DNA of 64,000 nt from Tubulanus polymorphus (lineage: Eukaryota; Nemertea; Palaeonemertea; Tubulaniformes; Tubulanidae). The DNA is taken from positions 26,008,001-26,072,000 of the forward strand of contig NC_134025.1 in NCBI RefSeq assembly GCF_964204645.1, written 5' to 3'. Both the position numbers and the translations under genes were made by a program. Shown here piece after piece: positions 586-51,494 of the stretch. A model generated the notes under the pieces. That model had not been told where the DNA came from, did no database searches, and saw nothing but the letters and a program-made list of their open reading frames with translations. Numbering within the stretch: position 1 is the stretch's first letter; every line of letters begins with the position of its first letter.

Positions 586-3500
586 TTAAGTGGATGGCTC
601 TATGTTCATGAGTAAATCGTCTCCTTCCACTTTCGAGCCTGGGGAAACATCTAATGATTTGATTACACCAGATACAGGAGCGTTGACTAACATTTCCATT
701 TTCATAGCACTCAGCACGAGTAATGGATCTCCTTGTTCAACTGTATCTCCAAGCTTAACCTGAAATTCACGAATTAGATTATTAATAGAACATTACTTCA
801 TTAACATGACTTAATTTATGGGAATGAAAATAAATTTTGGATATCTTACCTTCAATTCAACAATATTACCAGGCATTGGAGAGCCAACAGATCCTTTCAC
901 ACCTACTAATGCTTTCGGGTGGAAATGCATCTCCTATGATTAGAACATTACAGAATGAGAATTCTGGTACTTAAGAAATATTGAAGGAACAAGAAAATAC
1001 AATATTAAAGGCAAATACCTTCATAGCTTCCTTATCATTGATCAACACAGAGCGAACTTGTCCATTCAGTTCGAAAAACACTTCCCTCTGACCCAAAGCG
1101 TTCAATTCTTCAGCTACAGCCAATGTCTTAATATGCAGAATTTTTCCCTTCTCAATTTCAACCTAACGCAGTAGTTCAAGAATCACACACTTTAAATCTA
1201 TTTCATTCACTTAGATAAAGTTAAATGCATCATGAGTTTTGTTTACCGTGAATGATTCAGCAATTTTGGGACCGACCAGGAAGTGACGAGTTGTCAACTT
1301 ATCGACTGGTCCATATGTATTTCTGAATGTTCTGTAGTCATCGAAAACCTTCGGATAAAGAGCAGAACTAATGACATCCACATCCCTGATGTATCGACCA
1401 TGCGTTTCAATCAAATCAGATTTGCGTTTTTCTAGATCCAATGGTGGCATGGATTCTCCAGGACGCCCAGACACAGTTGGGGCTCCTTTTAGGATCTGAA
1501 AAATATACAAATCATTAAAACGACGATATAACCAAAAGACTATCCCCGATCATCCCTATGATATGAGAAATATGTGTAATGTACTGACCTTTGTTCGTAG
1601 TGGTTCTGGATAGCCGCCGTACGGTTCACCGAGCTGACCTTGCATCAGTTCAACTACAGACATGGGAAATGAAAGCTCTTCTGCACGATCTTCCACCATC
1701 TGTCCAGTGAGCTTATTCTGGACCATAAATTGTGCCAAATCGCCAACAACTTTAGAAGAAGGAGTCACCTACAAAATGTATACGCAGTTGTCCTACAATT
1801 CTATTCACAAATTTTCAAAGAACCAACCCCCCAAGAAACTTGTAATCGTATTTTACCTTAATCAAATCACCAAGTAATGCGTTGGCTTCTTTGTACATTT
1901 TCTTCACTTCTTCAAACTGATCAGCAAGCCCAAGACTATGTGCTTGGAACTGAAGATTTGTGTACTGACCACCTAGAAACAAACAGGGGAACGTTAAGAC
2001 GACCTCGCAGAATACTGCATAATATGGCTTATAAAGCAGACAATATTTTGTACCACTCACCAGGGATCTCATTTTCATAGATATCAGAGTTTCCACTCTT
2101 CAGTGTAGTTGTACATTCAAATGGAGCATAAAGACCCCTTGCTTTTTCCCAGTAGGCAGAATATTCAAATACCTTATCCATAGAAATATCTGCAAGAACA
2201 AGGTGCACGCTTGTGAAAGCAAATTATTTCAAACATCACTTTTCCATTGTATTCTTAATGTGCATCAAAATACCTGTGGCAAGATCAGTTCCCTGCAGTG
2301 AAGCAATGATTGCACCCATACTCGGCTGAGATGTCATACCAGACATCGAATCAACGGCTGTATCAATGACATCAGCACCAGCTTCAGCACAAGCCAACAT
2401 TGCAGCCACTCCCGCACCTGCTGTATCGTGAGTATGGACATGTATTGGCATGTCGGGATATTTGTCTCTCAGTGCACCAATTAGCATCTTCGCTGCTCGA
2501 GGTTTTAACAAGCCAGCCATATCCTATACATAGAGCATAAAAATAGTGAAAATAGTGAACGGTTTGATAAACCGAAGGGAAGGAATGAATCCAAATCATA
2601 AGTAAGTACCTTTATGCAAAGAATGTGAGTTCCAGCTTTTACAAGTTCATCAGCCACTTTCATATAATACTGCAAGTCATATTTCGTCTTTTTCGGATCG
2701 GAAATATCCCCGGAGTAGGATATAGCGGCTTCAATGACTCCCCCTGTACATGAAAAGGATGTATATCGATGATTTCAGCTGCATGTAAACAATCATGTAT
2801 CAGAATGCTCAATGATACAAACCTGCCTTTCCAACTGCTTCCATACCAACAACAATATTTGGCACGTAGTTAAGTGAATCGAATACACGGAAAATGTCCA
2901 TGCCATGTTGAACAGCTAACTCACAGAATCTGGCGAAAAATATTTCAAAATTTTATACATTTTCCCTGTCATGATGTATAATGAATACAAAACCACATCT
3001 TCATAATTCATAGTTTACCTGAACACCACGTTGTCGGGGTAATTTGTGTAACCTACGGCATTCGCACCTCTCAGTAACATCTGGAACGGGATGTTAGGTA
3101 TCTTCTTTCTTAGAGTTTCCAGTCGGTTCCAGGGACATTCGTGCAAGAAACGCATTGCGACGTCGAAAGTAGCACCTACAAATGACCGGCATCAATATTT
3201 ACTGTAGATAGCGATTTTATATAAGTGAATGAATCTAAGAAATTAGAATTTTTCCTACCTCCCCAATTTTCAAGACTGTACAGCCCATTGAAATTGTGAG
3301 CTACAAACGGTGAAATTTCCTTCAGATCGTGAGTACGTACACGAGTAGCTAACAACGACTGATGTGCATCTCGTAATGTCGTGTCCATCAATAATAAACC
3401 TTTATGTTGCCGTATAGCCTTAGCAAAACCTTCCGGCCCCTCGCGATGTAAGGTATCTCGAAATCCTTTCGGCAAGTCATGAGCTAAACAATAAAAACAA

Positions 3501-6500
3501 AGATATCATTGATCATTATATTGTAGATGTATGATTTTCCATTTCATTTCTTCGTAGCTTAGCCAATAAATTCTAGCACTAGCTCAATTAAAGCTCTTAA
3601 CAACAGATCATCGAGCTACTAGAGTACTCAACAAAATTTAATCTCTAAAAGGTTAAGTACTTATTTCATTGATGAAGCAACATGCAACTACTGCATTTCC
3701 TAGAGCAAAAACAAAAGATTAATAACTGGGTTAACAGGTAAAAGGAACCCATCACAATATATATTCTATACAAATAAACTGTACATATGATTTGTTTACT
3801 ATAAACAAAGCGATTAAGATAAAAGTATGTTCTAATCACTATTCCACTTTCAGCCTCTTAATAGTATCTCTCACACCGCGTTAATTGGGTTGATTCAATT
3901 ACGGTATAGCATCTACTAGTATTCATAGTCAACATATTATCCAGGTTTTAAGGGGAATCTTAAGCATAGCGGTTACTTCATTAAAGGAAGCATTTGGGAA
4001 AAGGAGAGGTCTACCCGTACTACATTTTCATCTACATACAGAAAGCTTCTGACAAAAGAAACTCAATGAAGCTGATGTGTCTTTTGACTACCGGAAAAAT
4101 GAATTATCTGACTTATCAATAAGTCAGGTTCAAAGCACAAAGAACATTCAGACTAGAAATCAGCCAAACAATCTATCCGTACAGTTCATAATAGCCAATA
4201 AAGTGCTAAAGTTTGAAAAGCTTAATGAAAACACTGCATTCAAAACATCATATCACAGATATACGATGAGTGTATTGAATATAAAAGAGGTGTCTATTAG
4301 CCCACTTTGCATGTATAAGGGACAGATTAATTCACTTGATCTCACCGTGTCGATCTGTGGTTACTGTAAAACAATTCATCCATGTCAAATAAACCGTCAA
4401 ACATGTACAAGCCCATTATTCAATATACAGTTTTGTTTGGTATTTTCGAAAAACACTTAATCATGTATAGTTCTTACCAAGAAGGAAAGGATAAGATTTG
4501 AATCATAGATCGAATACCCCGGTATAGTAAAGCGCATATCAGACTTTTTAATGGTAGCAGAAGACATGAAAATATTCCGTTAGGGAACCATTTAATTAAT
4601 TACTTACGAAATGGTACTGGAGGGCATTCTACGACAACATCTTTAGGTTGAAGATCTGTGCCTAATGGCGTCAAAGATCCATTCACCATTATTTCTCCCA
4701 GATAACGAAGCAATTTCTGAGCCCTGTTCTGCGATGGTTCGAAGTAAAACAGTTGAGGATGTTCATCGATGAAGTAAGTATCAACAACACCAGACAGGAA
4801 CTTCTCATGTTGTAACACGTTTAACAAGAAGGGCACATTAGTCTGCAAGATTCATACATAGCACAATATCAATCATGAAATCATCTTTATATAGTTTTAT
4901 ATTGAACGAAGATTAGTTAATTTATACCTTAACACCTCTGATTCTAAATTCTTTCAATGATCTGAGCATCTTTAAGCATGCGGCTTTATGATCACGAGCA
5001 TGGGCAATGACTTTCACAAGAAGTGAGTCATAATATGGTGATATAGTAGCACCAGCGAAGGCTGATGCACTGTCTAAACGAATTCCCATTCCTTCACCAC
5101 TTCTGAACACCTAAACACATAAGAAGGAATATTAGCGTTACGAACTAAATTAATGGAGAGAGAAGCTATTTACAAGGTGTTGTCTTTGTCACCTCAATTC
5201 TGCCTGTATCTGGCTGGAAACTTTTTGCCGGATCTTCAGTTGTCATTCGGCATTGAATCGCGCAGCCTTGAACTTTAACATTATCCTGATGAAGCTGCAA
5301 ATCATCGAGTGTTCTACCCTCTGCAACGCGTACCTGAGCCTGAACCAAGTCAACCCTATAGGTATAGTACATGTACAAATCTTTAAAAGATAAATATATT
5401 ATGACCTTAAGATTTATTGAAACCTCCTTAATAATCTTATATTGCACTTACCCTGTGATCTCTTCAGTTACTGTATGTTCCACTTGAAGTCTAGCGTTCA
5501 CCTCAATGAAGTAGTAGCTACCATTTTCGTCAAGAAGAAATTCAACGGTGCCAGCATTTTCATAACCGACATGTTTAGCCAACCGAACAGCATCATCACA
5601 CATTGATTGACGAATATGATCGGGAAGCTGTGGTGCTGGTGCTATCTCGACAACTTTCTGGTGTCTTCTCTGTACAGAGCAATCACGCTCATACAAGTGA
5701 ACTACCTCACCAGTTTTATCACCTTGAAAACAAATTGGGATATTGTGGCAGTCATAAAGATATAAGTCTGGTACTATTTTTAACTACGACCTACCCAGAA
5801 TTTGAACTTCTATATGTCTGGGGCGTTCAATGAACTTTTCAATGAACATGGCTCCATTACCAAATGCAGATAGCGCTTCAGATGTGGCTCTGTTAAAGCT
5901 CTCCTTTACATCCTACAATTTCATGAAAAAGATTTTCTTAGCGTATTGGGAATCAAAATGGGTCTGAGCTGTAGCATAGCGTATAGCAATTCGATATACC
6001 TTCATTTCTCGTACTACTCTCATACCACGACCTCCACCTCCATAAGCTGCCTTCAGAATAATAGGTAACCCATATTGTTGACAAAATTCATTGGCCTCAT
6101 CTGCTGTATGGATCGGACCGGGGGTACCAGGTACAACTTGAACACCTTTAAGAGATTATAACACATAGTAATGCATTCAAGAGATGCAAAGTTATTGCAT
6201 GAATTTGGTTCGGTACCATACCTGCTTCAACTGCTGCCTTTCTAGCTTCCACTTTATCTCCCATTTTGTGTACAACCTCCGATGAAGGGCCCACAAATAT
6301 GATGCCGGCATCGGTAACAGCTTTTGCAAAGTCAGCCCTTTCAGATAGGAAACCATAACCAGGATGAATAGCATCCACATCATTCTCCTAAAACAAGTTG
6401 TAACAGTGAATGAATGAATCAATAGAATTCCTGTGATTAAATCCTTTCTCCAATCCTGGATATCATACCTTTGCTTTATGAATGATTTCAGGAATATTCA

Positions 6501-6977
6501 GATAAGCAGCTACCGGAGGCAGACCTCTACCGATAAGATATGATTCATCAGCCTTCTGTCGATGCATTTGCATGGTATCCTGCTCGGAATAGATGGCTAC
6601 TGTTCGTATGTTCATTTCGGTACAAGCCCGAAAAACACGAATTGCTATTTCACCTATAATCAACAAATATAATAACTTTATAGCAAACATTCTTAAACGA
6701 CACATTCTTCCAGTATTTTGAGTGTAAAAGCAAACAACGTCTTATAGTATGGACACCTACCTCTGTTTGCCACCATAAGTTTACGGATCTGTTTCTGATC
6801 ATACAATTTGGCAGCATTTTCAGAAGTCACATCCTTCTTATTAGCCGTTGTGGAGAATAGGGCCAAACAATTCTTTGGAAGTCTGAAGCCTGCACTCTTG
6901 GCATTTGACTGCCCTAGGACTGTGCCACCAATTTGAGCCAATGGCAATTTTGCCACTCTGCTTTGCAAACGTAACAT
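586..6977 (-). CDS. PC: pyruvate carboxylase, mitochondrial
   Basis: This biotin enzyme carboxylates pyruvate to oxaloacetate in the mitochondrial matrix, for gluconeogenesis and refilling of the TCA cycle. The 21 coding exons are 6977-6761, 6653-6469, 6387-6222, 6145-6000, 5912-5795, 5722-5452, 5355-5193, 5110-4928, 4842-4608, 3483-3259, 3175-3019, 2929-2823, 2743-2610, 2523-2274, 2189-2061, 1972-1857, 1768-1589, 1495-1247, 1162-1019, 933-850 and 759-586. They total 3,633 nt, or 1,210 aa (human about 1,178). The first 65 or so residues are basic and Ser/Ala-rich, like a mitochondrial presequence, and account for the extra length. Next come the biotin carboxylase domain (GEIAIR at residue 73; glycine-rich ATP-grasp loop; [15 protein letters not shown]), the carboxyltransferase domain (DTTLRDAHQ near 595) and the C-terminal biotin carrier with AMKM (biotinyl Lys near 1173). 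The exon holding the ATG runs to a splice acceptor at 7020-7022, so an upstream 5' UTR exon exists. No key motif is damaged. Confidence 0.97.
3484..4607 (-). other. largest intron of pyruvate carboxylase
   Basis: This 1.1-kb intron falls between the biotin carboxylase part and the carboxyltransferase part of the gene. It has proper donor and acceptor sites. The plus strand carries a 127-codon open frame (4077-4460) that resembles no protein I know and has the A+T-rich composition of the intron around it, so I do not call it a gene. Confidence 0.85.
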
Positions 6978-7020
6978 TATTATGATTTTCTTCTGTACAC
7001 CTTACTAACTGATAAGAATC

Positions 7021-8936
7021 CTGCAAAACAGATAAGAATCTATAATGATTAACCAGATTTTAAAAATTTCTCCAGCTAGATAAAGTGCGTATACCAATGA
7101 TGTAGGCCTACAGAATAAAATCAATGAATCATTTAATTAGAAATTATAATATTTCAGTGAAATCAATTGGCATTTATTCAATCAGAAGAGTTAGCTCAAT
7201 ACTGGTACATGTATGTAAACATAAAGCACAGCTGTCACTGAACTATCAGTACATTCGCCAACACACAACCAGTATGCAATTGTAGCAGTCTGTGAAAGGT
7301 TGCATCTAGGTCCCAGCAAACTAAATATGAATAGATACCGTAGTATCTATTTGAAAAAGTAATTGTATAAAAAGATAGTACTACGAATCCAAGGTCGAGC
7401 GATTATACCTATATCAAGGCTAGATAACAAATGGACCATGCTATGGACTTTGATAAGATAAAGTGTAGACCTAATATCATCAAACTTTGAATTTTAGACT
7501 GCTCTTTATTTTACAAAAATTCAAAGGAGATAAAATTTACATTTTGCTATATGCGTCCCCTTTTTCACTTTGTTTATGATTTTTTATCATTATCATTCAT
7601 AAGCTTATTAGTCTACTAAGCAATTAGTCTCATTATTTAAAAAGAAATAAGATTGACCGACCGCAGACTAAAGAAACACCTCGCCGAGAACCCTGTTCAA
7701 AGCTCAAGATCATTTACGAGAAAAACAAATATCCTGGCACTGGTAAACAATTCACAGTATCAATAACAAAAACAAAATCTTGAAAATTATATCACAGGCC
7801 AAGTAAAGACTTTATTTCATTTTTGTTTAAGCATCGTTTTGGCATAGACACTGGTTAATGCCAACAACCAATCAGTCTGTGCATGTGGTCTGGGAGTTTC
7901 AACCTCAATACAAGGTCAACTCATACCCCAGGTCTAATCGTACCCTACTGCAGATAGCCCCTGCATTTTGAAAAGCTATTTACCTCCTTTTTTACATCAA
8001 AATATCATCAGATACACACAATGGAATTTTTTTAAACTCAAAATGTTTTTCTGATAATGCTTTTAGGGCATAGTTTTAGGGCCTACTTACAATTAGTCTA
8101 GTACCTAAAGTCTATTCATTTTTTATTGTCCACGATCTTTTAGCCGCCGTTCTACAAACAACCAGTAGGGAACCGGTAACGACGACTGGTATTTAGACCA
8201 CAGGGGCTCATATCAGAGTTGTAGGTAATGTAAAAACGATAATCTGTTAATCCAATGTAGGCTATATAGTACATATAAAATAACCATACTATATATATTG
8301 GATTTCTGATTAACAGATTATCATTTTTACATTACCTACAACTCTGATACGAGCCCCTGTGATTCAGACTATACTTACAATCAATCTATATACAAAATTT
8401 TTTATTTCTTTTTTCAAGACAAGTTAAAAAGGTGTACAACGTGGAAATTGGACCACGTATGAGTTGACTTAGGGAACAAAGATGACTGTTTGAATAAAGT
8501 GAATTACAACATTGAATTTAATGTGAATTCATACACAAAAAATTTACGAATGGGTGTTTTTTTGTATTATTTGTCAATTCGACACTGACTTAGTAAGGCG
8601 TATTATAATCTCCCCATTGTCACACTGTGGGACGTTGCATCGTCGAGATTATTTTCATATTTGTAAGTTTAAGCGCATTTTACCTCAATACGAAATCATT
8701 TCTTCGCTGTCTTTAATATAGAACCACCAACCAGTACGGTCGAATAGATGAGGAGAAACTAATGTCAAACATGCAAATGGTCGTAGAAAGCGATGAAGGT
8801 TTGTTCCGGCCATCTATCCCACGCTACTCGAATATTGTCGGAGCCCTCCGAATGGATTGACCTCGCCAATATTGTGGAGCTTTCAAAATGGCGGATTGAA
8901 GTTTGTCAAATTTTTTCAACGAAATTTTCTTTAAAA
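7021..8936. other. head-to-head spacer between PC and TAF6L
   Basis: This is the shared upstream region of two divergent genes. It should contain the 5' UTR exon(s) and promoter of pyruvate carboxylase on the left and the TAF6L promoter near 8600-8900, where G+C is locally higher. There is no recognisable TATA box and no coding exon. The one clear structure is the long hairpin at 8199-8362. Confidence 0.6.
8199..8362. repeat. long inverted repeat (hairpin, MITE-like)
   Basis: The left arm (about 8199-8255) and right arm (about 8296-8362) are reverse complements over roughly 50 to 55 bases, with only a few mismatches and one small gap. An A+T-rich loop of about 40 bases separates them. The arms begin and end with CACAGGGGCTC and its complement. 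The layout resembles a fold-back miniature inverted-repeat element. I could not confirm a target-site duplication. Confidence 0.8.
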
Positions 8937-11928
8937 ATGGACAAAACTCCCGTTGCATCTTTATCTGTTGGCGAGAGAAAGACCGGAGATGAGAAGAAAT
9001 ATGCCATCATTTCAAGAGAAACCATCAGAATGTACGCTGAAAGTATCGGCTGCGAGCATTTATCAGATGAAGTCGTCAATTTATTGTCTCAAGATGTTAC
9101 TTACCGACTTCGAGAAATTACCCAGGTATTTAAGGCCTATCATTAAATGACTTGATTCATCCAGTCCATTCATATTTATATCTTAGATTAACTGATAGTC
9201 GAAATTACTTCATATTGACTTGAGACTGTTGGATTTACTCGTTTAAAATCTTACAAAACATTATTGATTTGAACCAAACATGTTACATTTCCTTAATTAG
9301 GCAAGTTGTCAATATATGAGGCATTCAAAAAGACGCAAACTAACAACTGAGGACTTCAATAAAGCAATGAAGTCAAAAGATGATGAGGTAAAGTAATGAA
9401 GAAAATAAACTAATGCATTAATTCTAATATGTTTTAATTTATGTATACGTTTACAATTATTACTTTTCAAATATATTTGACAGCCTGTTTATGGGCATGG
9501 ATCGACAGGCTCAAAACCATTCCAACAAATACTAGAAAAGGACTTTCATTTCACCGAAGATGTAGAATTAGATTTAGCACAGGTTATTGAAGAGGAAATT
9601 CCTGTCAACAATCCGGGACAAATATCTGTTAAAGGTGAATATATAGATCGAGTGTGAATTAAAGGAAATTATGTTGATTAACATCAACAAATCTTAGTAT
9701 TTGCATCATTATCATTTTTCTAGCGCATTGGTTAGCAGTTGAAGGGGTACAGAAGTTGTCTAGTATTGCACAGGGTGAGTGAATTGCCTTATTGGCTGGC
9801 ATACAAATAACTGACAAAAAAAATTGTAATTTTTCATGGCTGCCCAAGATGTTTAGTTTCAAAAATAGAAGTATTCTTTTCAGCTAAAACTGGTAATGGC
9901 AAGGCACAGAAAGGACTCTCTGAAGAATTACTGATGTATTATGATAACATGACAAAAGCAATATTGAGCAATGATAAAGAACTTATGAAGGTAATTCATT
10001 TAAATGTGATTTATGTGCGTTTACGTATACCACTGAATTTACCATGACTTATCTATTTTTGATATAGATAGCTTTAGAAGACCTGCGTACAAATAACAAG
10101 ATTGTACCGCTGTTACCATATTTTGTGAATTTTGTATCAAATGGGGTAAGTACGTAATTGATAAATCTAGCTCACGTTTCTCTTGTCAGCAGTACTGAAT
10201 CGTATGCTATTTGCAGGTAAAAAAAGTGAGTCATGACATTATGCAGTTAACCAAATTACTCCATACCATCAAAAGTTTAATGAACAATCCTTCTCTATAC
10301 TTGGAACCAAAGCCATACGTAAGTTGCAAAGCTTCCGTATCATGCTCTTTAACTGAAAATGTATGTAGCATCTCTTATAATATGTCACTATTTAATCAAT
10401 GTATGTAGCTGAATATGCTGATTCAAGGCGTTATGTATTGCGTAATTGAGCCACTTGCTGCATCTATAAACCCCCTTAATGATCACTGGAAACTGCGTGA
10501 CTACGCTGCGCGACTTCTTGCGCATCTTACTAGGTGAGTTCAAACTTTTAGAAAGTGACAAAATGCATATATAACAGAAACCTTGCTTAACAGTGGAATA
10601 AATTCAAGTAACTTTTCATTTTATAGGGAATGGGCGAGTTCTATGAATCAATTACAGTACAGAAATGTACAAGCTTTGAAAGAGGTTTTGTATGATTCAG
10701 GACGACCTTTCTGTTCCCATTACGGAGCTGTCATTGGATTGGCTGCTTTGGGTCAAGAAGTAAGCATTTAATTTCTGGAGATTATTTTTGAAACCTATAG
10801 TCTTGATTTTATTAGCAAAATTCCATTTTTGAAACTTCAGGCTGTGCGTAAAGTTTTATTGCCTCATCTCCCTAACTACTGGTGTCATATAAGGGCAGCT
10901 ATGGATGACAATACTCTAAACAATGCTCAAATCAAGTCTGATGCTCATAAAGTCTATGGTACCATATTGGTAAGTCATTTTAAACCTTTTTAGCTCATCA
11001 GTTTTTAGTATCGGTGTACTGGTAATGTTAGTCTGCTTTCCTTTGTTTCTAGCTGGCTGTTGACAACTTATTGCGAACTGAAATAAAAGATATGGAAAAA
11101 TCGCTTCAAACCACTTATTCGTTAATAGCTGGTCAAAAGGATGGCACAGTCTCGAGTAGTTCATCTGATAAACTACCGGTGCAAGAAAGCAAGGTTTCGT
11201 CGAATGATAATGAACATTTCAAAAAACTCTATGACCTTTACATAGACATGTACGAACAATTCGGTGACAGTTTAGCCGTCAAATTACCACTGCCTCATAG
11301 AGTCACAAATTTAGCTCCGAAGAATAAACAGAAACCAGTGGTTGTTCTGTACGATGAACTGGCCGCGAAGTCCGGTGAAGAACTATTAACTGAGCTGCTC
11401 AATAGTGAAGTCGAAGAGCAAAAAAGCGATCATAGTCATAGTAACGTAGAAGAAATTGACATCGATAGTCGATCGTTTAAATCTGACCGGTCGTATCGCT
11501 CCGATCGATCTGATGAGATCCCCGCGTTTTTAGCCGATCCGTCAATTGATTTGACGGTGAAGAGCACCGTTAACGATCCGGCCGGCGGTATCAAATTGAC
11601 GATTTCAAAACGGATTAAACCGGTCGATGACGCTAAAGCGAAAACGGACAGAAAAAAACGTAAAACCAGTCGACATTTCAGAGTTCAAGATATGTTCGAA
11701 AAAACGACTATCAAAAGGCGATTGTGTAAAATCGAAATATCAGTACCCGGAGGTATCGTTTTACGTCGAATGCCCGATGTGCGTAGATTCTCGTTTGAAC
11801 CATTTATGTCGTCATCTCATTATGAAAAAGTCTGTTTGAAAACTAAATTTATCGGAAAAAGAAAAGCATCGACAAAACCGAAAAATAGAACTCATTTGCT
11901 AACTGGTGCTATCGATATGTGTTTATGA
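8937..11928 (+). CDS. TAF6L: TAF6-like SAGA subunit (PAF65-alpha)
   Basis: This is a histone-fold and HEAT-repeat scaffold of the SAGA/PCAF acetyltransferase complex in the nucleus. Exons: 8937-9125, 9301-9387, 9484-9634, 9724-9774, 9884-9990, 10068-10145, 10217-10318, 10409-10533, 10627-10759, 10841-10969 and 11053-11928. They total 2,028 nt, or 675 aa. The histone fold covers about residues 17-90. The TAF6-type HEAT domain (about 195-385) has PLAASINPLNDHW, CSHYGAVIGLAALG and DAHKVYGTIL, which match TAF6L better than TAF6. Residues 143-152 (AHWLAVEGVQ) are instead the TAF6-type linker. The last exon encodes about 290 polar, probably disordered residues with a basic patch. The frame is open 48 codons upstream to an ATG at 8793, but I chose 8937 because family similarity starts just after it. 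A poly(A) signal follows 58 bases after the stop. Confidence 0.93.
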
Positions 11929-20971: not shown

Positions 20972-23900
20972 TCATAGATCAGAGGATTCCATTTCAGAAC
21001 CACCTACTTCAAAAGAAGGTTTTTCACTCCCATCAAACATAGGATTGTCTTTAGCATGTGGCGTATCATCAGTGTTCTTTAGTTCACTACTCGAATAAGC
21101 AGTTGCTCGTCCTGATTTCCGGCGATTGTAGAAAATTGCGAGCACACCAAACATAAGAATATCAACACCCATCAAAACAGCAAACACAAAGAACTGGACA
21201 GACTGGAAAAAATATAATTGGTACCAGTAATAACAACTCTTGTCAATATATGCCACATTGTGTGATGAAACTGTCACCTGAATATACACATTGCAGCAAA
21301 ATGTATTCATGGATAACAGCTGTGTATTTATTTGAGTCACTTCAGCAACTTACCATAGCTGTTAAATATTAATATACTGGTATGCTAAATTTCTGATAAA
21401 ACATTCTTCAATTATTCAAACATATCTTCAATCAATATGGCTTTTAGAAATAATGGTTGAATCACTACTTACCCTTATATTAACATCAAACTGAACTATC
21501 ATTTGATTTTCATTAGTGATCATAAATTAAATGTATTGTAATCTATTCCGACAACCAGGACCCATGAGAAGATAAATATGATGACTAAATTCGATAATTG
21601 AAATATTTGAATAAATAACAATTACCGTAATCAGTTAAATTGATTAGAACATGCTCCCAAGAGTATATAGGAGGGTGGGGCTGAGTTGATTTTATCTACA
21701 ATCTTACCGCACTATCAGAAATGGTGACAGTGGATGCAACAATAACAATAAGGTTACCAAAAGCTGTTGTTAACAAGAAGAAAGACTGCACGACCGATTT
21801 CATAGATACCGGAGCCTGAAAGTTTACAGAACAAAATTGATGAAAATACAGATAAATAAAGTACGAAATACTTACACCATGGCTCATACTTGTCATTTCA
21901 AATAACAATACGATCAAATTGCCGATAGCGATTGTCAATAACCACACAGCCATCAAAACTGATTTCATAGTTTTAGGAGCCTGTCATTGAAAGGAATTGA
22001 GAATCGTCAAAAAATCATTGATAAGTGATAAATATGCGATTAATGGATGTGTCATGAGCAAGAAATGAGTGTCTCCATGGCTCAGCTCTGACTGCATGCC
22101 TCCATAGGAGGTGTTTCAGAAGGGGTAGTTTGTTTGGTTCTGAGCTTCAATCTTACAATCCTTTTAATACAATCTTATTTGGATGAGAAAGGAATTTCAA
22201 TCAAATATGGTAAAAGGTGAAAGAAAATGGTACAATAGTTACCTCTGAATATGCAAATGAAAGACCAGTGACCGAAAAGAAGATCTCACCAATTGTAATA
22301 ATGACATATTGAGGTATCTGCAGTAACATTGAGATCTTGTTTGGATTGACATCAGTAAATGTTGCCAAAGAATTCTGTTTGACATACAAATGACACATTT
22401 TAACATTACAATACCACTGGGAACGACATCAATTTTTGAAAGATGTTTTCTAATTCGCTTACAGTTAGAATAATCACAGTATAAACACCGCCCATTCCAA
22501 GTTCAGGATCTACAGGAATAGTCCTATTGTTTATTATATGAGTACCATTATACACCGGAACTTTAAACTTGTAGCTAGAAATAGTAAGAATGATGTTGTT
22601 GATACATATCAATGATACTATTTAGTGATATAATGACAACTGACTTTCATTGTGTGACATGGATAACTTACATGGGATCAACAGAAATATATTCTGTCGG
22701 TACTGACTTTTTTACTCCATGGAAAACATACTTATCACCATAATACATAGTTCTATTAACAGTATCTGGGATTGAATCATCAATCATATAGACAACTCTG
22801 AAATTAATATTTGATGACATTTAATTTTGTCACCTCATTCTAAACTATTCAACTCATCAAACTTTAAATCTTACCTTACTCTTGCTAATCCTTTGTGTGG
22901 CTTTGTTAATTCATCATGCAACTAAAAAACAATGTACCAATGAAATCTCAATTTTCTTCTAGCTTTTCAACCCCAAGGTATCATACTTAAAAAGACCTAC
23001 TGTTTGAATAACAATGTTTCCAGCAGTAGGTTCTGACACCATCAATGTTGTTTCATTATTTCCTAAATGAACTACTTGATTTTTCTTTGATATATCAACA
23101 CCATTTGGGCAGTGAAGAGTAATGTTCAATGACACATCACCAGATGTGGTCAGTATAGATGGAGTATCCTGAAAATATTGAATAGAATAGAATTTTTAGT
23201 CTAGATTCTACAGATGTAGAAAAACATTACATGTTACCAGTAGGCCTACTTACAGTTAGAGGCGGTACAGGGTTTTCAGATATGTAGAATGGGCTTCTAA
23301 TATCCATAGTGCAGTTTTGTACAACATTTGAAAACTTAACACGACTTTCACCCATTTGAAGCTGTGGTACTATTGTTTTCTAGAAATATACATTGATGAA
23401 ATGTTCATGCAAAAACATACTAAACTTGGACGGCAGAAGATTCGCAAAAAATTGTTCCGAAAAACACAACTTACATCAATACTAATTTGGACAAATCCTG
23501 CCATTACAAACGCTAAAGCTGCCAGTGCCATGCCAAGTACCATTTTCAGTAACGGTCTATAATAGAGGTAGATTTATATCACCAACAAATTCAATCTTGA
23601 TTTTAAATTGCTGTTCATATTTATTACTGAAGACAAATCTAAATGAATTCTATACATACCTATTCATTTTACACTTAGTCATAAGAGGATAAAGACAACT
23701 TTCAAATATCGGAATGAATATGATGATGAGTATAGTGTTGATTGCCTAAAAATCAAACAAAATCATAATATTTGGTAAATGAAATCAAGAACTTCTCTAT
23801 TTGATTGAAATTTCTATATGTACTACTATTGGTTTTCATTTCTGGATACAGCAATAAACATAGTTATGCAAATGCCCCACCTGTATTTGATCTGGTTTGA

Positions 23901-26543
23901 GAACCATAAATCCCTGAAAAAATATATTGAAAGCTTACAGATGGGGGAACCTGTGTTTGAAAAGGCAGATGCAAGTAAAAAACATCTAAATTTCTAAGGA
24001 TAATTTCAATCTATTCCTGATTATATACATACCAAATCGCCATCCATTTGTTCAGCTTGGAGAGTCCAGGTGGATCCCTATAAAATAAGAAAAATTTCAA
24101 TCAATAAACTTCACTCCATGCTGTAAGCGCTTTTTACTATTTCATCATCCCTACCTGTTGATCATAGAGAGCCCAAAATACTGGTAGAGGAAGGAATATC
24201 AACAGTACCCATAACACGGCCTTTACATCTTCAATGAATGTTTTCTAAAATTGAAAATGTTTCAAAGCTATAGAATTTCATCCACATTGCCTAACAAATT
24301 ATTCGTATTGCCTTATGCCTACTCAACACAATAATCTTATAGCCTACCTCATACATATCATCTGCATAATCCAAGACAGAATCTCTTTTGATAGTAGACA
24401 TCGTAAACTTATTAGTAATACCTCTCTGTAGGAGAAAAACATAACTAATTCAAAATAGGATAGTACTTAATAATAGTTAGGTTCTATTTCATTATAAAAA
24501 CATACATAAATACACATGAAGAATCTTCCTACAATGTTTCCACTAGGTGGTGTTATTTTGTATGCATTCTTACCACTGACAAAGAAGACTAAAAGACAAA
24601 GCAAAATATTTTGTTATACGAAGAACTTGCCTCTATTCTTCTACCAGATAAATTTCTATTTGAATGATTGATATGAAATGAAATAAACATACTTATTGCA
24701 ATAATCATAAGCAATGCAGGAACTCCAAATGCAAGTGGGTAGCAATCTCCACCAAAACACTGTACATCCTCTGTAAAAATATTTGAAGTTTTATGCAAAT
24801 GAAATTGGATCTGTGTATTTGAGAAAGTACAATTTCATTTTGACTAACCTCTGAAAATAGGAGTCAAAAAGGTTGAAATCAGTGACCCAGCATTTATTGC
24901 CAGATAGAAAATGGAAAAGAACTGAGCTAGAAGTCGCTCCTAAAATAAAAAGAATAGATACGATATAGTACAAATAGATAACTTTGAGATATGATGAGAA
25001 TATTGTATACACGAATGTCCAGACCTGACTAGGTTCAAATTGGTCACCACCAAAGGCAGATACGCAGGGTTTGATACCACCAGTTCCAATAGCTATCAAG
25101 AGAAGAGCCACCATCGGTCCGGGTACTCTGAAAAAGCCAAATCAATGTCATAGATAGGTTCCATTTGCAATTTTGGAATAGTTTCTATCTCAACTTCACT
25201 CACCTATTTTCTAATGGAAATGCTGTGAATGACATGATCACATTACCAACAGCATAAACGATAGACAGATAGGTGATTGTCCTAAAATGGCACGTCAAAA
25301 ATCATAAATTATCTCAATCAGCATTGGTTTACCGGTAATTTGATTTCCTGCCACTTTTCTTTAAAAGACTGCATTAACTTACTTGAATTTACCGATCCAT
25401 CCATCAGCTATACAAGCCCCGATAATAGGGGTAAAATAGCAAAGCATATTGAAAGCATGGAAAATTTCAGTAGCTGCGTGAGCCCCAAATTGCAGGTGAT
25501 TCTTCAAGTATAAGGTCAGTACAGCTAAAACAACACAGAATGACGAGGATAGAGATTTCAACTGATATAAGCACTGTAAATGCTATTGGTGACATGACTT
25601 TCTACTTACTTCTCATTCCATAGAAGGAAAACCTCTCACAAAACTCTGTCATGAGAATTAAGAACACCGGTTTTGGATAATCTCGACATGATTCCTAAAA
25701 TTGCAAAATGTAAATCACTGGAGTAAGATTCTAGTATTTTGTTTGTTGAAAGAACTGCAACTGTTCAACAGAAATTGATAAATATATATCTATAATATAT
25801 AATTTCTACCGAAAGTTCTTGGCAACAATTTTTCTTTTCCTTGATTTCATCATCAGGGTCTCTGGCCACATCAAGATCGCAAAGATGGTCTTTTGACATC
25901 GCACTAGATGTGTTTCCAGTTTTGCCACTTTCAAGTAATCTAGTGCCTACAAACAACATTGAATATGTCAAAAGCATTATAGCTATATATTTCTGCACAA
26001 GGGCAACAATTACTCCAATACTTTCTATATACAATGTATGTATGTGTTTTTGCAAAAAAAAAACCCATTTTGATATCTGATGAATTGATGTATGTTGTTA
26101 AGGTAAAGAAAAGTCACACTCTTGAATTCATATGATATGAATAAGACAAAATCAGTTATAATTAGATCAATGTTTAAAGTCAATGTCCAGAAAATCTAAG
26201 CATACCAGCATTTGAGTAAGTTGGCCAAAACTCTTTCTAAAAATAGGCGAATATCCAAACCGGGATGTGGATGAAAATTTGAATCAAAATTAGAAAATTC
26301 CAGGACATATTCAGGGTAATTCTTTATTCAAAAAGAAGGGGCCTAGATCCCATGTGGATCTACCACCATCAAAAGCCTGAGATATGATAAAGAATATACA
26401 TATTTAGTAGAAATTGACAAAATAAAATAGAAATGTTAGCAACAACACGATAAAAAGTAAGTTGATACATTAAGTCTACCTTCATCAATAGGCTTGCCAT
26501 TGCTGCCAGTTGATGATGCACTATCACTATCATGATTCTCCAT
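20972..26543 (-). CDS. SLC15A1/2: proton-coupled oligopeptide transporter (PEPT1/2 type)
   Basis: This is a plasma-membrane POT-family symporter that takes up di- and tripeptides with protons. Exons: 26543-26480, 25946-25810, 25694-25610, 25524-25383, 25281-25204, 25127-25025, 24939-24849, 24770-24693, 24588-24506, 24425-24348, 24244-24155, 24077-24033, 23913-23881, 23745-23660, 23556-23475, 23379-23254, 23168-23001, 22921-22875, 22797-22672, 22574-22463, 22374-22243, then 21980-21876 or 21815-21708, then 21202-20972. That gives 773 or 774 aa. TM1 has the proton-coupling ExxER motif (Glu84, Glu87, Arg88). The PTR2 signature FYLAINAGSLIST and QPYQ-like GTGGIKPCVSAFGGDQF block are intact. A loop of about 190 residues between TM9 and TM10 is the extracellular domain typical of PEPT1/2 and absent from SLC15A3/4. 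Two tandem TM11 exons are described separately. The donor after 25025 (GTCTGG) is weak. A second in-frame ATG lies just upstream at 26546. Confidence 0.95.
21708..21815 (-). other. alternative TM11 exon, copy 2 (Phe type)
   Basis: This 36-codon exon encodes APVSMKSVVQSFFLLTT and the rest of the same helix. It is clearly homologous to the exon 60 bases upstream of it. It is phase 0 at both ends, with a GTAAGA donor and a TTTCAG acceptor. The pocket Trp is replaced by Phe. Joining either copy to the flanking exons keeps the frame. Including both would add a second helix. Confidence 0.85.
21876..21980 (-). other. alternative TM11 exon, copy 1 (Trp type)
   Basis: This 35-codon exon encodes APKTMKSVLMAVWLLT and the rest of a helix that matches TM11 of PEPT1/2. 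It is phase 0 at both ends, with a GTAAGT donor and a CAG acceptor after a modest pyrimidine tract. It keeps the Trp that aligns with human PEPT1 Trp622, a binding-pocket residue, so it looks like the ancestral form. Confidence 0.85.
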
Positions 26544-29500
26544 CATCAATCTTCAGTTCATCTCCATCTAATTAAAAACGATGATTTCATTATTTAGGGT
26601 TTAAAGGATCAGAGTTATATATAGGCTTATATATGCAATATGTTCCAAATAATCAAAAACTTTCAAATTAGGTTAATGCTCAATCCAGACACATGTCAAC
26701 ATACGTTTTATTCACATATGTGTTAATAGTGCCTCAAAAACATAAGCCTAACATTATGCGTTTTTATCATCACATTTTCTATATCCTTTTCTTGTGTGAA
26801 ATATTGAAAAGAATTTATTCAAAATGCCTGATATAGTACATGAATATGATGTGTTTGTATGAAAGTTAATAAACTTTGTGTACCAAATGACAGTTCACAT
26901 ACCCAAATCAGAACGCCGAATACTGCTAACAAGACTAATGAAATGGAAAGTTTATGGTAAAATTCCGAAGATGAACGTATAAGAAATCCTTAGATCCTAA
27001 ATCCTTTGAATGAATATTGTGTCACTTAAGAAAAAGAATCATTAAATGTTTTTAACATAAACCAATGGAATCCTTAAAACTAGCTGAAGGCCACTATATG
27101 AGCCACACTCATCTAAATATTCATCCTACATAGTGGATAACAGAATCTACATTGCGTTTTCAAACTGTCCATGTAGGTGAAAAAATAGTCCATATGGCAT
27201 TAATGGAAATCCTTGCCGGCTGGTTTTATATGCACGAATGCTGTTCACTGTGAGCAATGATATGGTGGCGACGCAAAACAATGATTAACCCACTGTGACC
27301 TGTTCTTGCAGAATGCACAGCATATTAAATTGTAATGAAAATGACCTTTATCTGCAATGCTGACAAAAATATAAGTGATTAACGCACTTTTTGTTACTTT
27401 AAATACCATGCCCTAAAATATAATCATTGTTATTGCGTGTTATTGCCCTATACATATCAAAATTTATCAAATGACCTGGCAAAAGAAAATATTAATTAGA
27501 AAATAGTTAATCAATGTGTCTTGTTTGACACCTTTGTAAAGAATCAGATAGATTTTCATGATAAGCCTCATAGATAACTACTACTAGAAATAAGAAAAGA
27601 CCACAAATGGTTAAAATGCAATTATCTTGCCATGTGATAGAATCACACAGAATTGTTGAATAATGAATGATAAGCAAGTTGACCATCGCTCTATGACAAG
27701 AATAATCATTACAGGTGCTTACCTTAGGTTTATCAGTACATCAACAGCTTTACTGCACAGACCAATTCTACTACCTGCAATGACAAAATAGATGACTTCA
27801 TGCATCACAACGATCCTTAGACAAATAGAATCGATAATGGAACAGTTTGAATATTTAAGAGTGTAAATCTAACCTAACATGTACTTAGAATCATGGAGCA
27901 GAAGTCTCAAACCTAACCCTAATCTTATTCCTCAGCAAGGATATTTACCAGAGAATTGAATGCCATACCATAATGGCATGAAAAATTTGATAAATTGGAA
28001 AAATTTAGGTATGTTTGTCTTTAATAAACTTTTATGACCAAATTGAATTTAATAACATTATGTAGGAGTGTGTGTATATCAATTGGATTATTATCAATAT
28101 TGAGATTTTTATTCAGATCACATTAATATTAAGCTTCTATGGCAGATTCTGACTTACCCAATGTTACTACGATATCATTCCATTAACAGAAAGGTAAATA
28201 TTGATGTAGGATCATATTTAGGCTGTGATCATTGCTGTGTTAATTACACTATCAATCACATCAAGAAGTCAATTTACTCCATTTCCCCACCCCCTTCCGC
28301 TAGGTTTCTAGTTTCATTTTACTTACAAAGTGTTTTGTTGCATAAAATACAAACAATTGAAAGACGGAAGTAGATATTAAAATCTGGAAACAGAATCATT
28401 GAGATGCATCACAATAAAGGTGAATTAAATCGCCACTTACTGTACTGGTATCGAATTAGAAATTTCAGCTAGGAACCAGTAAACTGCTTTACGTTTATGA
28501 TAATATTCAATTGACTATCTCAATCAGAAGATAGTTGGACATTACTAAATGCTGTTTTTAGGTTATGACCCTTTATAAATAGAGTTTCGTATTGACATAT
28601 TAGACTCTGATAAGTGATAATCTAGGATATAGGTACAAAAGGTTTTAAAAATGTATCGGAAAGGTATAAAAATATGCAAGGGATAGATCTGATGTCTCTA
28701 ATCGACTCTAATCAATATATGGTGTAACTCAATGTTTAAGAAAATTTCCCTTCATCAATAGAAGAGTTTGAAATTGATGAAGCTGTGTCTATAGAATATT
28801 GCAAAATACAATCGTCTTAACTGCGATTTCTATGGGACTTATTAATCAACTGCATTAAATTAAAGTACAAAATTGGTAGCCTATGTGACAAGGCTTAATT
28901 AATGGCATAAATTTCGAAGATTTTCAACCTTTTCAAATTCTAAGATTTCCAAAGCAGTTGTTCCAATCAACTCACTTCACATTTTCACCATCTACAGCTA
29001 ATAACATGGCCAAATGCAGTCCTACCCATTTCACATGCAATGCCAACGGTCTGTATGGTCTCATCTTATCGCAGCACACTGCGTTGCATTCTGAAGGACA
29101 TAGCAAATATAGATAACACTCTCCAAAGAAAGCCTGTACTGTAGGGTGCTGTAGCACGCAGAAGCAAGAAGATTTTCTATGCCCAATCAACATTAAAAAA
29201 TTAAACTTAAGACTCATCTGAATCAGCATGCATCAGCAATTTTGACTTGACTGATGACTGGCTGAGCAGAACAACAGTCAAGAAAGGCATCTTATCACAG
29301 ACATCACAGCAACACAATCTAATTCAGGCCATGGTGGTCATCTTTGATCGCCATTGATGGACTCACTAGGCTACCTTGATTGGCTCCTCCTTTATATTTT
29401 GCTGGGCTGGCTCTTGCCTGGTTGATAACAAATAATCATCAAATTGATCATATGATGACGGGCTAGGCATGACTCACAAAATTTAAATTAATTACCGGTA

Positions 29501-45687: not shown

Positions 45688-48600
45688 TCATTTCATCATA
45701 TTATATGACCAGTGTTTTTTTGAATTTTTAGATGAACTTCTGGACACAGAAGGCTTACGAATACCAGCTGAAATAGAAATGATAGATTTATCACATATCT
45801 AATTAACAATTAAATAGCAATGATAGATTTATCACATATCTAATTAACAATTAAATAGGTTGTAGTTTAAGAATGAATTTGTATCAATATCAACTCAGGA
45901 GCGAAATCCACAGTTTTGGTCTAAATTGTGTGTATAGGGGAGACTGATTGTGACTACAGAGTCAAGTTTAAGACATGATTGGAACCAACTCCTGAGAAGT
46001 TGGTGTGAATGTTTAATGTACCGGTACCTTTATTACTTTCATCGCTTGATCCTACAATATCACCATTACTACTACTACTGCTAGTATTACTATTACGGTC
46101 ACTACTGCTAGGAACTATTTGTGACTTTGAATGACCTTGTCTAGCAACAACAGGGTGATACTGATCGACTGCAAAATTATAGGATAATGCTGAAAAAGAG
46201 AAGTAAAAAATTGGCCAATTTATAATGAAAATGAGTTTTTGAACATAAACCTAATGGGGGGGAGGGGGTGGCACGATCAAGCTTACCGGCTGGAGATGGA
46301 ACATATTTTGACCAAGTCGGTCGCGTTGGACGGTTATTTGTAGGAGTCCATCCACCTGGCTTAATTTTTTCACCTTCAAGAGGAAGAAAACAATGATTTA
46401 ATGTAGCAACTTAATATTCATAAACTCTCATGCCAAGTAAAAGTAGAACAAGCCATAGGCGACAACGGTTCTCGGGCTCAGACTCGAACTCTGAAATCAT
46501 CACGTGTTAGTTCCCATTGCATTTTGGAAATTTTGTATCTAGGGCCAATAGCTAAATTTTGTTAAGATAATTTTTTGAATTTCAATCCTAGTGCCAATGG
46601 GGCACTGGGCCCATTCTTTAGCTCTCTGCACAATTAGACCCCATAATGACATTGTACCAAAGTTTCATCAAGTTCAAACCGCTGAAAGACAGACACACAC
46701 ACACATTCAAACAGACAGTACAAGGATAAGGGTCTCACGGAAGCCCAAGAACCAATCAGAACTTACTGTATATTTCTTTAACAATCGTTTTTTGTTTCAG
46801 GGATACACTTTCAGGATCCCATGTATGTACAACATGTTTTCTATTTGGCGTTATAGTTTTCAACAAGCGTTTTCTGAAAAGATGAACAAAATATTCTATA
46901 CCAGGTAATTATGATCTTTATAACATGACAATCAATTATCAGTACCGGATAATATGTTATTCCAAATACCTGCAGTATTTTCTCCAGGCGAGTTGAATTG
47001 TTAGAGCAGCTATCTGTCGAATCCACTCCTCTTCTCCGGCTTCTAAACGCTTATTTCTTATCGCATCCTGGGCAGTTTTCAGAACTCCCTTTTTGATGTA
47101 CAAATAACTGGAACAAAAGAAGTAAATAAACAAACTGAAATTATTCAATTTTAAAAAGCAAGATGGCTTTTCTTCCAACACGCACTGTCTAAATCCACGC
47201 TGAATAGTCGAAGCAGCTTTTTGCTTCAGTCTAAATTCATCTTGTCGGCTTCGTTCGGCATCAACCACTTTTTTCCGGTTTTGTTGCTTGCGTAGAATTC
47301 TTTCTTCTTCCGTTAGAATGATCTCATTACGTTTACGCCTTCGCCGAGTGGTAGCCGGCTGTTCATCTAAAAGAGCTTCTGCTGCGATGATTTCCTCGAT
47401 TCGTCGGTTTTCTATTTCTTGTAAGTTTTTAATATTCTGACGACGTTTGTATTCATCATCAGCTTTTTTCCTTAGAAAAAAAAGAATTTGAAGTAGCCCT
47501 GTTAAAACTAATTGAATAACCTAAGCATTTTTCGATCTACTGATAATACTGACTTAGCTGCATCTTTTCGAAGTTGTTCATGTTTCATCAGCAATTGCTT
47601 TCTCTCGAGGAAAGTTTTACGAACTCTGTAGCCGCGGAAATACGACTGAACTTTAGCCGCTGCGATTTCCTGAATTCCGCTGATTGACAAAGATCCCTGT
47701 TCAATGAGAAACTGCGCAACAGCGTGATGTTCACCCATCAGTGCATAATCCAAAGGGGTATATCTAAAAGGTATACATAACATAATAATCAATTTCATGG
47801 TAACTAAGAGAGAATTTCACCCTTAGCAATAGCATTAATTACTTTTTTCTAATACAATTGATAATCTGCATATTTGTTGGTAATTTCATTCATCTTTGCC
47901 GAATATGGCCTTCAGAGAACCTAAATATGAATTGCACTTAAAACGTTATTACCTGTCCTCTGTAAATTCCATACGGTTTGAAAACGCATTATATTCGAGC
48001 AGTAGTTTTACTGCGTCGAGATGTCCTTTACTGCAAGCCCAATGTAAGGCACTCATTCCCTGAAAGATTTAAGTAATGCTCATTCAAACATCACGTTAGA
48101 TGAATGAAGATTTATCAAAGAGTAAGTCGCTAATGTGCTACAGTGTCGTTTATAGACATACCTCATTATCTTGCGTGTTAGGATCAGCTTTGTTCTCTAT
48201 GAGCACAGACATACAATTTACACAACCACCATATGAAGCACAGTGTAATGGCACCCGACTACAAATAAAATGACCAGATTTGAAAACTGAAAATTGCCAT
48301 TAGAGTAAAATCATAGGCGAAAACTGTTTGATTATGCTAACTATCTAAACAAATCTCCCTGACATTCGTTGATTTTTAGCTTTTTTACAAAATTCCCTGA
48401 CGATTCCCCGACTTTTTTGAATTTAAGAAAATTCACCAATTTTTCGTTGATTTCCAGATATGTGGCCACCCTGTGTACTGTAGGCTACATACCCCGATAG
48501 GTCTCTGAAGTTGGGATCAACGCCGTACTTGATAAGCATTTGACAGATATACGCATGACCGCCGAGAGCAGCCCAATGAAGTGGAGATCGACCGTCATTA

Positions 48601-51494
48601 TCGACTAGATCGACTCGAGCGCTGTGATCCATTAGCGTCTGCACCACATCAGTATGACCCATTTCACACGCTCGAAACAATGGCGTATGTTTCAGTAGAT
48701 CGGTACTGTCTATTTGTGCTCCGTTATCGAGTAGAAGTTTCACGGTTGATGCGTGACCGGACAATGCAGCGGCGTGAAGAGCTGAATAGATATATTAGAA
48801 AATGATGCAGTCATTTAAATTCTTAATCGAATGAATATTGCATGAATTGGAAAAGTTAACAATTGCATTAACAGTTTAATCAAGGTGTTTCAATCAAGCT
48901 AACTATGGTTATCTTCTATTCTAAATCATAGAGAATGATCACCAGGGACTGTATTAACCATCAGGTGAGTTAACCCCCTGATAAGTTGGGTGAAATCTCA
49001 CAATTTTCATTAATTCATTGTAGGATTCTTGCAGAATTCTAAACTAGTCTCTTCGACATACATTAATAATACCAGTAGTGTACATTTGCCCTCACCTGAA
49101 GCACCATTTTTGTCAACATTTTTTATATCTACTTTCTCAGTATACTTCATCCACACTGTTAACACTTTATCGGCACCTTTACTACACGCCCACATGAAAG
49201 CTGTTCTTCCATCTACATCAGGCTCATCGACTATTTTATCACTTTTGAGGAAGATCTCTGCAGTTTCCTACAACAGAAATTTGCATTATTTACATCGAAT
49301 TTAACAGACAACCTAATTGTTATACTGCCGACATAAGTGCAGTGTAAAATAGCTAGAGAATTTTACTAAAATAGAGACAAGAAAACCATTCTATTTCAAA
49401 AGCTCAGATGATGTCTTAAGGAAAACAAAGATTTAAGGAAACTTACAGCATAATTGTTCTGCGCCGCATAATGTAAAGCAGTAGCACCATTTGAATCAGA
49501 ACTTGCATAGTCAGCACCTCTTGCTAGTAACATCGCAACCACACTTGTATGCCCTATGTATAGATTTAAAAAGGAGACATGAAAATATTTCACAAAATTC
49601 TAACGACTAGGAAATTGATATCACCAAGTTTACAAACCTAACACAGCAGCCCAGTGAAGGGGTGTACGAAACATGTTGTCTAATGCAGAAACATTACATT
49701 TCGGAGTCAAGGTCTAAAAATTAAAAATCGTAATTCTTGAAATGGAGACTACTTTCAAGAGTTTAAGGGCAGAAACTAAGATTTCCATATCATAACTCAC
49801 TAAAACATCAACAATGGCTTCGCTTCCTTCAGCAACTGCTAAATGTAATGCTGTTCTACCTTCGTAATCTTGCCAATTTATTACACTCGGAGCAACTTCC
49901 TACATAGAAAGAAAACAAATTCAGTAAGTCGAGATATTAAAGTGTATATTCATGACAGGGTTTGCACAGCTCTCACATAAAAATTAATGACTATTTAACA
50001 CAAATATCACTTTTCATGTCTGTACACAACCTCGTTGAAAAACTTACAAGTAATAATTTTACGCAATTAACAGCCTGGTGGTCATGGCAACTCGCCGCCC
50101 AGTGAAGAGGCGTTTTTCCTTCTGTATCCGGAATTCCGATATTAGAATCTTGTTTTAGCAGCATTCTCATATGATCTAAATTCCCATACGATGCACTCCA
50201 GTGTAAAGCAGTCCTCTAGATAAATGAAGTATCCAGTTTAGTGTTCTAGTATCATCATTTTTGCATCGTTTACAGGACAACTTACTTTCATATTGTCTTG
50301 ATCATCTACTTCTCCGGGCATAACGTACTTCAGCAAAAGGGCTAAACATTTTGAAGCCTTGTGTCTTGTACATAATTGCAAAGCAGTTTGACCTTCAAGA
50401 TCTTTTTCTTTCCATTCAGAACCTTTTGATAGCAACAACTTCATCAGCCGATGGTTACCCTGTTTAAATAATAATTAAATGATATATTTCATACATTTTT
50501 TCAGTTAACTTCTCAACAACAAATACCTTTGGTTCTGGGCAAACCATTAGCAATGGATAGGTATAAACTGTGAGCATCACGCCACCTTATTGTTCATTCT
50601 ATTTTTCTAACATACACAATATAGGCCTACTCATTAAGCAAAATTCACCTTATGAGCCGCCCAATGTAAAGCAGTTCGTCCTCCTTTATCAGTTTTATCT
50701 ATGAAACAGCCAGCTTTGATGAGAATTTCCGCACATTCTAATCGATCAGCCAGAACACAGTACATCAGAGGTGTTCGACGAAACTGATCTCCAATATCAA
50801 TTTCTCTTGGATGGCCTGTCAATTGCACAACAGTAGACATAACGGTAAACACATTTGTTTGGAATGAATGAGGGGTGAAGACAACATAGTCAAATAATGA
50901 ATTCACAAGATAGTGTGTGTTGGTAGTGTTTGAAAATCTGAAAACTACCTCCAGAAAGATAAGCATCAAAGTATTTTCAAGAATGTACATTTCTTGGCTT
51001 TAAGCTGTAGCAGTTCTGAGACAGAAAAAACTTACTGATTATGAATTTTCCGAGTGTATTTTTATCCCCATTCACAGCAGCTGCGTGTAACTGCGTAATG
51101 AACTGATTTGCCAGCTTTGTTTTTGACATATTCAAAGCAGCTTCGCTGTCCATCTGAAAATACATATCAGCTATAATGTATCCTGTGAGACATACTTTGC
51201 CGTTTTCTAAAACGCTGGGATGTGTCAACCTTTGAAAGTCAGGGTCAAAGTATCTTAGATTTAGGGTCGAGAATCTGAATTCCATAGGCTTACTACTGTA
51301 TTGATCATCATTATTCATGTAAGGTTGGTTAGGATTAGGGATAAGGGTTAGGTCGAAATAGTGATCATTTGCCGATGATTTGGATTGTATCCGCGTAGGC
51401 TTAATATTGGCAAAGCCAAAAGTATTCACTTTTGCATTCAATTCGATTTACTCACTCTACTCAACATTCCTGGACGATGGCCAGCAGTAGCCAT
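45688..51494 (-). CDS. INVS: inversin (nephrocystin-2)
   Basis: Inversin is an ankyrin-repeat scaffold of the ciliary inversin compartment. It shifts signalling from canonical to planar-polarity Wnt and is needed for left-right asymmetry in vertebrates. Exons: 51494-51456, 51153-51036, 50815-50649, 50459-50286, 50215-50048, 49899-49801, 49713-49638, 49553-49447, 49267-49096, 48781-48493, 48258-48162, 48059-47953, 47763-47554, 47470-47186, 47107-46970, 46873-46767, 46373-46287, 46189-46028 and 45767-45688. They total 2,682 nt, or 893 aa (human 1,065). Ankyrin repeats fill about residues 30-570 (for example RTPLMYCVLADRLECAEIL, TPLFRACEMGHTDVVQTL, RYTPLDYALMGEHHAV). IQ motifs follow at about 574-588 (KVQSYFRGYRVRK), about 693-705 (split over two exons) and about 733-750 (TIQLAWRKYCR). 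The C-terminal part is shorter than in vertebrates, mainly in the region between the IQ motifs. Starting at 51494 gives a short N-terminus of 13 residues from its own exon. Exon 13 uses a GTCAGT donor. Confidence 0.95.
45778..45857. repeat. 41-bp tandem duplication in the last inversin intron
   Basis: A 41-base unit starting AATGATAGATTTATCAC occurs twice head to tail, at 45778-45818 and 45819-45857, with no differences over the shared length. It starts about ten bases upstream (in the gene's sense) of the final exon's acceptor, so it duplicates sequence near the branch-point region. The perfect identity suggests a recent event. Confidence 0.85.
46440..46740. repeat. possible interspersed repeat in an inversin intron
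   Basis: The intron 46374-46766 contains a tRNA B-box-like word on the minus strand (AGTTCGAGTC at 46481-46490). It also has a CA-rich AGACAGACACACACACACA tract near 46686-46706, of the kind found at the tails of invertebrate SINE and RTE-type LINE copies. The two signals point in opposite directions, so the exact element and its borders are unclear. Confidence 0.3.

Follow-up and report, generated by a model that had tools for sequence, protein, structure and literature searches.

Many oral drugs, as well as peptides from the diet, are carried by the SLC15 family, in which the basis of side-chain preference is still debated. In vertebrates there are two PEPT genes, PEPT1 and PEPT2 (SLC15A1 and SLC15A2). 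Variants of a transporter can also be produced from a single gene, as in SLC12A1 (NKCC2), where exons 4A, 4B and 4F are mutually exclusive and the transmembrane (TM) helix that they swap alters affinity. SLC25A3 and SLC39A14 carry mutually exclusive exons as well (PMC5740500), and tandem duplicated substitutable exons are over-represented among ion channels and transporters (PMC9741552). Paired exons that encode TM helices can hardly be cassette exons, as the use of both or of neither would change the side of the membrane on which all later sequence lies (PMC5740500). A steric threshold of roughly 50 nt between donor and branch point is cited for mutually exclusive exons (PMC5740500, PMC7969005).

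The locus described here resembles SLC25A3, SLC39A14 and NKCC2 in that tandem exons swap a region of a transporter, although the folds and families differ from SLC15. It also resembles α-tropomyosin and exons 4a/4b of OGDH, which are likewise homologous neighbours with a short intervening intron and exclusivity expected from the spacing (PMC7969005). The OGDH exons, however, have distant branch points in an intron of 118–131 nt in birds and mammals (PMC7969005), whereas the intron here is only 60 nt long. Exon pairs of this kind are already known. The original prediction knew of no earlier report of such exons in SLC15, and none was found for SLC15 peptide transporters or PepT1 in the part of the literature searched, within which the case is new for SLC15; databases may already annotate such isoforms.

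The gene and its two TM11 exons

The window, i.e., the whole 64-kb stretch of DNA that was analysed, contains on its minus strand the gene listed here with the features around TM11 (residue numbers are those of human PEPT1):

20972..26546, minus strand: PEPT-type SLC15 peptide transporter gene, 24 exons (hand-built model, GT-AG introns, continuous frame)
22243..22374, minus strand: exon 21 (TM10, ends ...FAYSE), common donor GAG/gtaact
21981..22242, minus strand: intron upstream of A, 262 nt
21876..21980, minus strand: exon A (exon 22), 105 nt, encodes a TM11 that has Met619/Trp622/Ile626, weak acceptor
21816..21875, minus strand: intron between A and B, 60 nt, no shorter one found in this genome, proposed to prevent A–B joining sterically
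21708..21815, minus strand: exon B (exon 23), 108 nt, encodes a TM11 that has Gln619/Phe622/Thr626
21203..21707, minus strand: intron downstream of B, 505 nt
20972..21202, minus strand: last exon (TM12, cytosolic tail, stop), common acceptor

All introns of the model are GT-AG and a single continuous frame runs from the ATG to the TGA. If A and B are mutually exclusive, each transcript would have 23 exons and the product would be 774 (with A) or 775 (with B) amino acids long. In a profile search, the spliced product matches the POT profile PF00854 with 366.6 bits (cut-off 27). Its similarity to mammalian PEPT1 and PEPT2 is nearly full length (about 670 residues aligned, E about 1e-150), the ExxER motif is present in TM1 (EFCERFSFYGMR), and there is a large domain between TM9 and TM10, which is a hallmark of animal PEPTs. 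By profile, ExxER motif and full-length likeness, the gene is identified as a genuine PEPT-type SLC15 transporter, of the same family as vertebrate PEPT1 and PEPT2 and with full-length homology and the extracellular domain in common with them. Vertebrates have their two PEPT genes, whereas only this PEPT-type gene was found here: searching the genome assembly (268 Mb, 77 contigs) with the transporter protein revealed no second one, although a search of this kind can miss matches. One other SLC15 gene was seen in the genome, of the PHT (SLC15A3/A4) type, on contig C2 at 2684500–2692500: APRTMQGVIMGFFWFF.

The adjacent TM11 exons of 105 and 108 bases that had been predicted were located exactly, at 21980–21876 (A, APKTMKSVLMAVWLLTIAIGNLIVLLFEMTSMSHG) and 21815–21708 (B, APVSMKSVVQSFFLLTTAFGNLIVIVASTVTISDSA), with intact GT-AG sites (cag/A/gtaagt and cag/B/gtaaga), phase 0 at each end and no stops; the pair is flanked by a donor at 22243 on the upstream side and by an acceptor at 21202 on the downstream side. 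Both exons start with the Ala-Pro of an "AP..MKSV" segment, and Ala-Pro, MKSV and Asn630 are kept in both. The two are identical at 16 of 35 amino acids and at 56 of 105 nucleotides. Their ungapped BLOSUM62 score is 75, the maximum in 200,000 shuffles of B being 41, and in tblastn over the window each retrieves the other with an E value of about 1.3e-6. Judged by these comparisons, A and B are homologous versions of the TM11 exon, beyond chance. The same tblastn search yielded no convincing second copy for any other exon of the gene. A recent duplication or an assembly artefact is ruled out by the divergence at nucleotide level.

Residues exchanged in TM11

Three positions of interest are swapped between the copies: 619 (Met in A, Gln in B), 622 (Trp in A, Phe in B) and 626 (Ile in A, Thr in B). 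Alignment to structures places exon position 13 at Trp622 of human PEPT1, which bears out the prediction of Trp in the upstream and Phe in the downstream copy at this site. The further claim that the site lies in the peptide-binding pocket agrees with structural work: the equivalent residue of PepT2, W649, lines the side-chain pocket with L650 and I653 (PMC8565842), and the same Trp of PepTSt, Trp427, covers the P2 pocket as a lid together with Phe428, Ser431 lying in that pocket (PMC5845931). The swap extends beyond what had been claimed, to 619 and 626; in human PEPT1, Gln619 is a gate residue beside Trp622 (PMC3970736). By analogy with these structures, the roles assigned are lid of the side-chain (P2) pocket for 622, intracellular gate for 619 and pocket wall for 626. 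Asn630, common to A and B, forms a bond with Tyr64 when PepT1 is outward-open (PMC8565842).

The states found at these positions elsewhere in the family bear on whether B encodes a working peptide transporter. Splicing could be exclusive and the B isoform nevertheless be a non-transporting or differently coupled form. The inspected PEPT structure chains have Trp622, as do all 80 of the bacterial relatives inspected (the best-scoring matches, which lean to similar sequences and were found with scan patterns that leave out TM11), and the loss of this Trp from B would fit such a form. Phe, however, is normal at 622 in the PHT gene of this animal as well as in human SLC15A3 and SLC15A4; B also keeps Gln619 and Asn630, and the TM10–TM12 segment fits PF00854 equally well with either exon (50.9 bits with A, 50.5 bits with B). 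Thus, Phe622 of B is, on these comparisons, not the usual PEPT residue, yet it is tolerated in the family at large, and a B isoform that does not work as a peptide transporter is unlikely, albeit the least unlikely of the three alternatives considered here.

Met619 of A is the state in the same 80 bacterial relatives, and also in PepTSo and PepTXc. Vertebrate PEPT1 and PEPT2 both keep Gln619 together with Trp622, whereas neither exon here has both. As each copy retains some PEPT1/2 states that have been lost in the other, neither exon is simply the original. An origin of B by borrowing from PHT was considered and rejected: PHT1 and PHT2 (SLC15A4 and SLC15A3) share with B the Phe at the Trp622 position, but the rest of their TM11 (MQG/MQS, Ser at 630) is unlike B.

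Conservation of the two copies

Between A and B, the synonymous difference (pS) is 0.73 per site, i.e., near saturation, and the non-synonymous difference (pN) is 0.39. For the helix proper, pS is 0.70 and pN is 0.31; the synonymous excess there fails in 1% of codon bootstraps (P 0.01). Only five of the 16 shared residues use the same codon. Synonymous sites near saturation, together with a lower non-synonymous difference, indicate that the duplication is old and that the protein sequence has been held; both TM11 copies are, on this evidence, old and constrained.

This bears on the alternative that one copy is a fossil exon, left over from an old duplication and now always skipped, so that every transcript carries the other. 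Neither copy has a stop, a frameshift or a lost splice base, and long neutrality is rejected by a drift simulation, kept simple (20,000 runs of an unselected copy of A, scored for an open frame, the observed identity and the splice bases): at 0.5 substitutions per site the observed state was retained in 0.5% of runs, and at 1.0 substitutions per site in none of the 20,000. The evidence for constraint is drawn from one genome, with which a very recent loss of use is compatible. In favour of a fossil exon are the absence from B of the otherwise invariant Trp622 and the acceptor of A, which scores below those of all 30 reference introns, the small sample from which the splice-site matrices were built. 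The donor of A ranks 4/30, and the sites of B are ordinary (acceptor 9/30, donor 18/30). The ranks give a hint, and only that, that B might be the default exon and A the regulated one; the weak acceptor of A could reflect either regulation or infrequent use. Weighing near-saturated synonymous sites in a protein sequence that has been held against the weak acceptor and the lost Trp, a fossil exon seems improbable, slightly more so than a non-working B isoform.

Spacing of the exons and probable mutually exclusive splicing

The intron between A and B is only 60 nt long, so that, wherever the branch point is placed, it could hardly be more than 45 nt from the donor of A, which is under the threshold of roughly 50 nt. 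All of 46 other introns of this genome are at least 76 nt long, with a pile-up at 76–88 nt and none of 75 nt or less. The sample comprises 20 introns of the PEPT gene, 16 of PRPF8 and, from spliced alignment to the human protein, 10 of a pyruvate carboxylase gene. Two raw values were left out: one of 47 nt in PRPF8, which arose from misalignment next to a 4-base exon, and one of 312 nt in pyruvate carboxylase, which came from the end of a query piece. The sharp lower edge at 76 nt, seen across three genes, is a useful yardstick for other short-intron claims in this genome. The pyruvate carboxylase gene that served as part of the size yardstick lies at 1200–7001 of the window, on the minus strand. 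Splicing of A to B is probably blocked sterically, as judged from intron length, although some animals splice 60-nt introns. A regulatory RNA structure of the docking/selector type was not found: the folding of 22290–21660 is no stabler than that of shuffled sequences (z 0.52).

Joint inclusion of both exons, constitutively or by retention of the intron, is very improbable: exons and intron are multiples of three, the intron has no in-frame stop and 21983–21699 is one open frame, with the reading frame kept whether both exons are used or neither, but an open stretch as short as 60 nt is probably due to chance, the intron is below the minimum observed in this genome, and the double (or no) use of the exons would add (or remove) one membrane helix, a protein of 13 helices having TM12 and the cytosolic tail turned to the outside.

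The best reading of the DNA, with high probability, is that the TM11 exons are spliced in a mutually exclusive manner and that the gene thereby yields two PEPT transporters. Exon 21 would join either A or B, and the chosen exon would then join the last exon. The joining of A to B would probably be blocked, as any usable branch point would lie within about 45 nt of the donor of A, in an intron below the 76-nt minimum. Both proteins would keep the POT fold and the Asn630 of TM11. They would differ in side-chain preference for the second residue of the peptide (through 622 and 626) and in gating (through 619); a difference between the isoforms in peptide preference or gating is likely. Mutually exclusive use had been proposed from the outset, and that proposal is supported by the constraint on both copies, their usable sites, their coding for the same single TM helix and the 60-nt spacing. 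The sequence, the homology, the constraint, the intact splice sites and the outlying intron length are observed; from them we infer the expression of both exons, the steric mechanism and the functional difference. Mutually exclusive splicing is strongly favoured but unproven.

The broader proposition, that one gene gives two transporters, one with a Trp lid and one with a Phe lid, which differ in gating and in the dipeptides they prefer, splicing taking the place of the vertebrate PEPT1/PEPT2 gene pair, has a somewhat better than even chance of being correct. If true, splicing, and not duplication of the gene, would have given two transporters to an animal with a single PEPT gene, and two natural proteins identical except in TM11 (at the pocket lid, the pocket wall and the gate) would offer a ready-made experiment on side-chain preference.

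Other features were noticed along the way. On the plus strand of the window there are a protein phosphatase 2C gene (PF00481, 13802–14674) and an uninterrupted frame that encodes a family 11 glycosyltransferase (PF01531, alpha-1,2-fucosyltransferase type, 53818–54879). On the minus strand, inversin-like ankyrin and IQ-motif exons (46960–51447) and MyTH4/FERM-like exons (58562–62345) were read by eye. Beside PRPF8, on contig C2 (22673000–22682999, reverse strand, at about 7600–10000 of that piece), there are long overlapping open frames that are retroelement-like.
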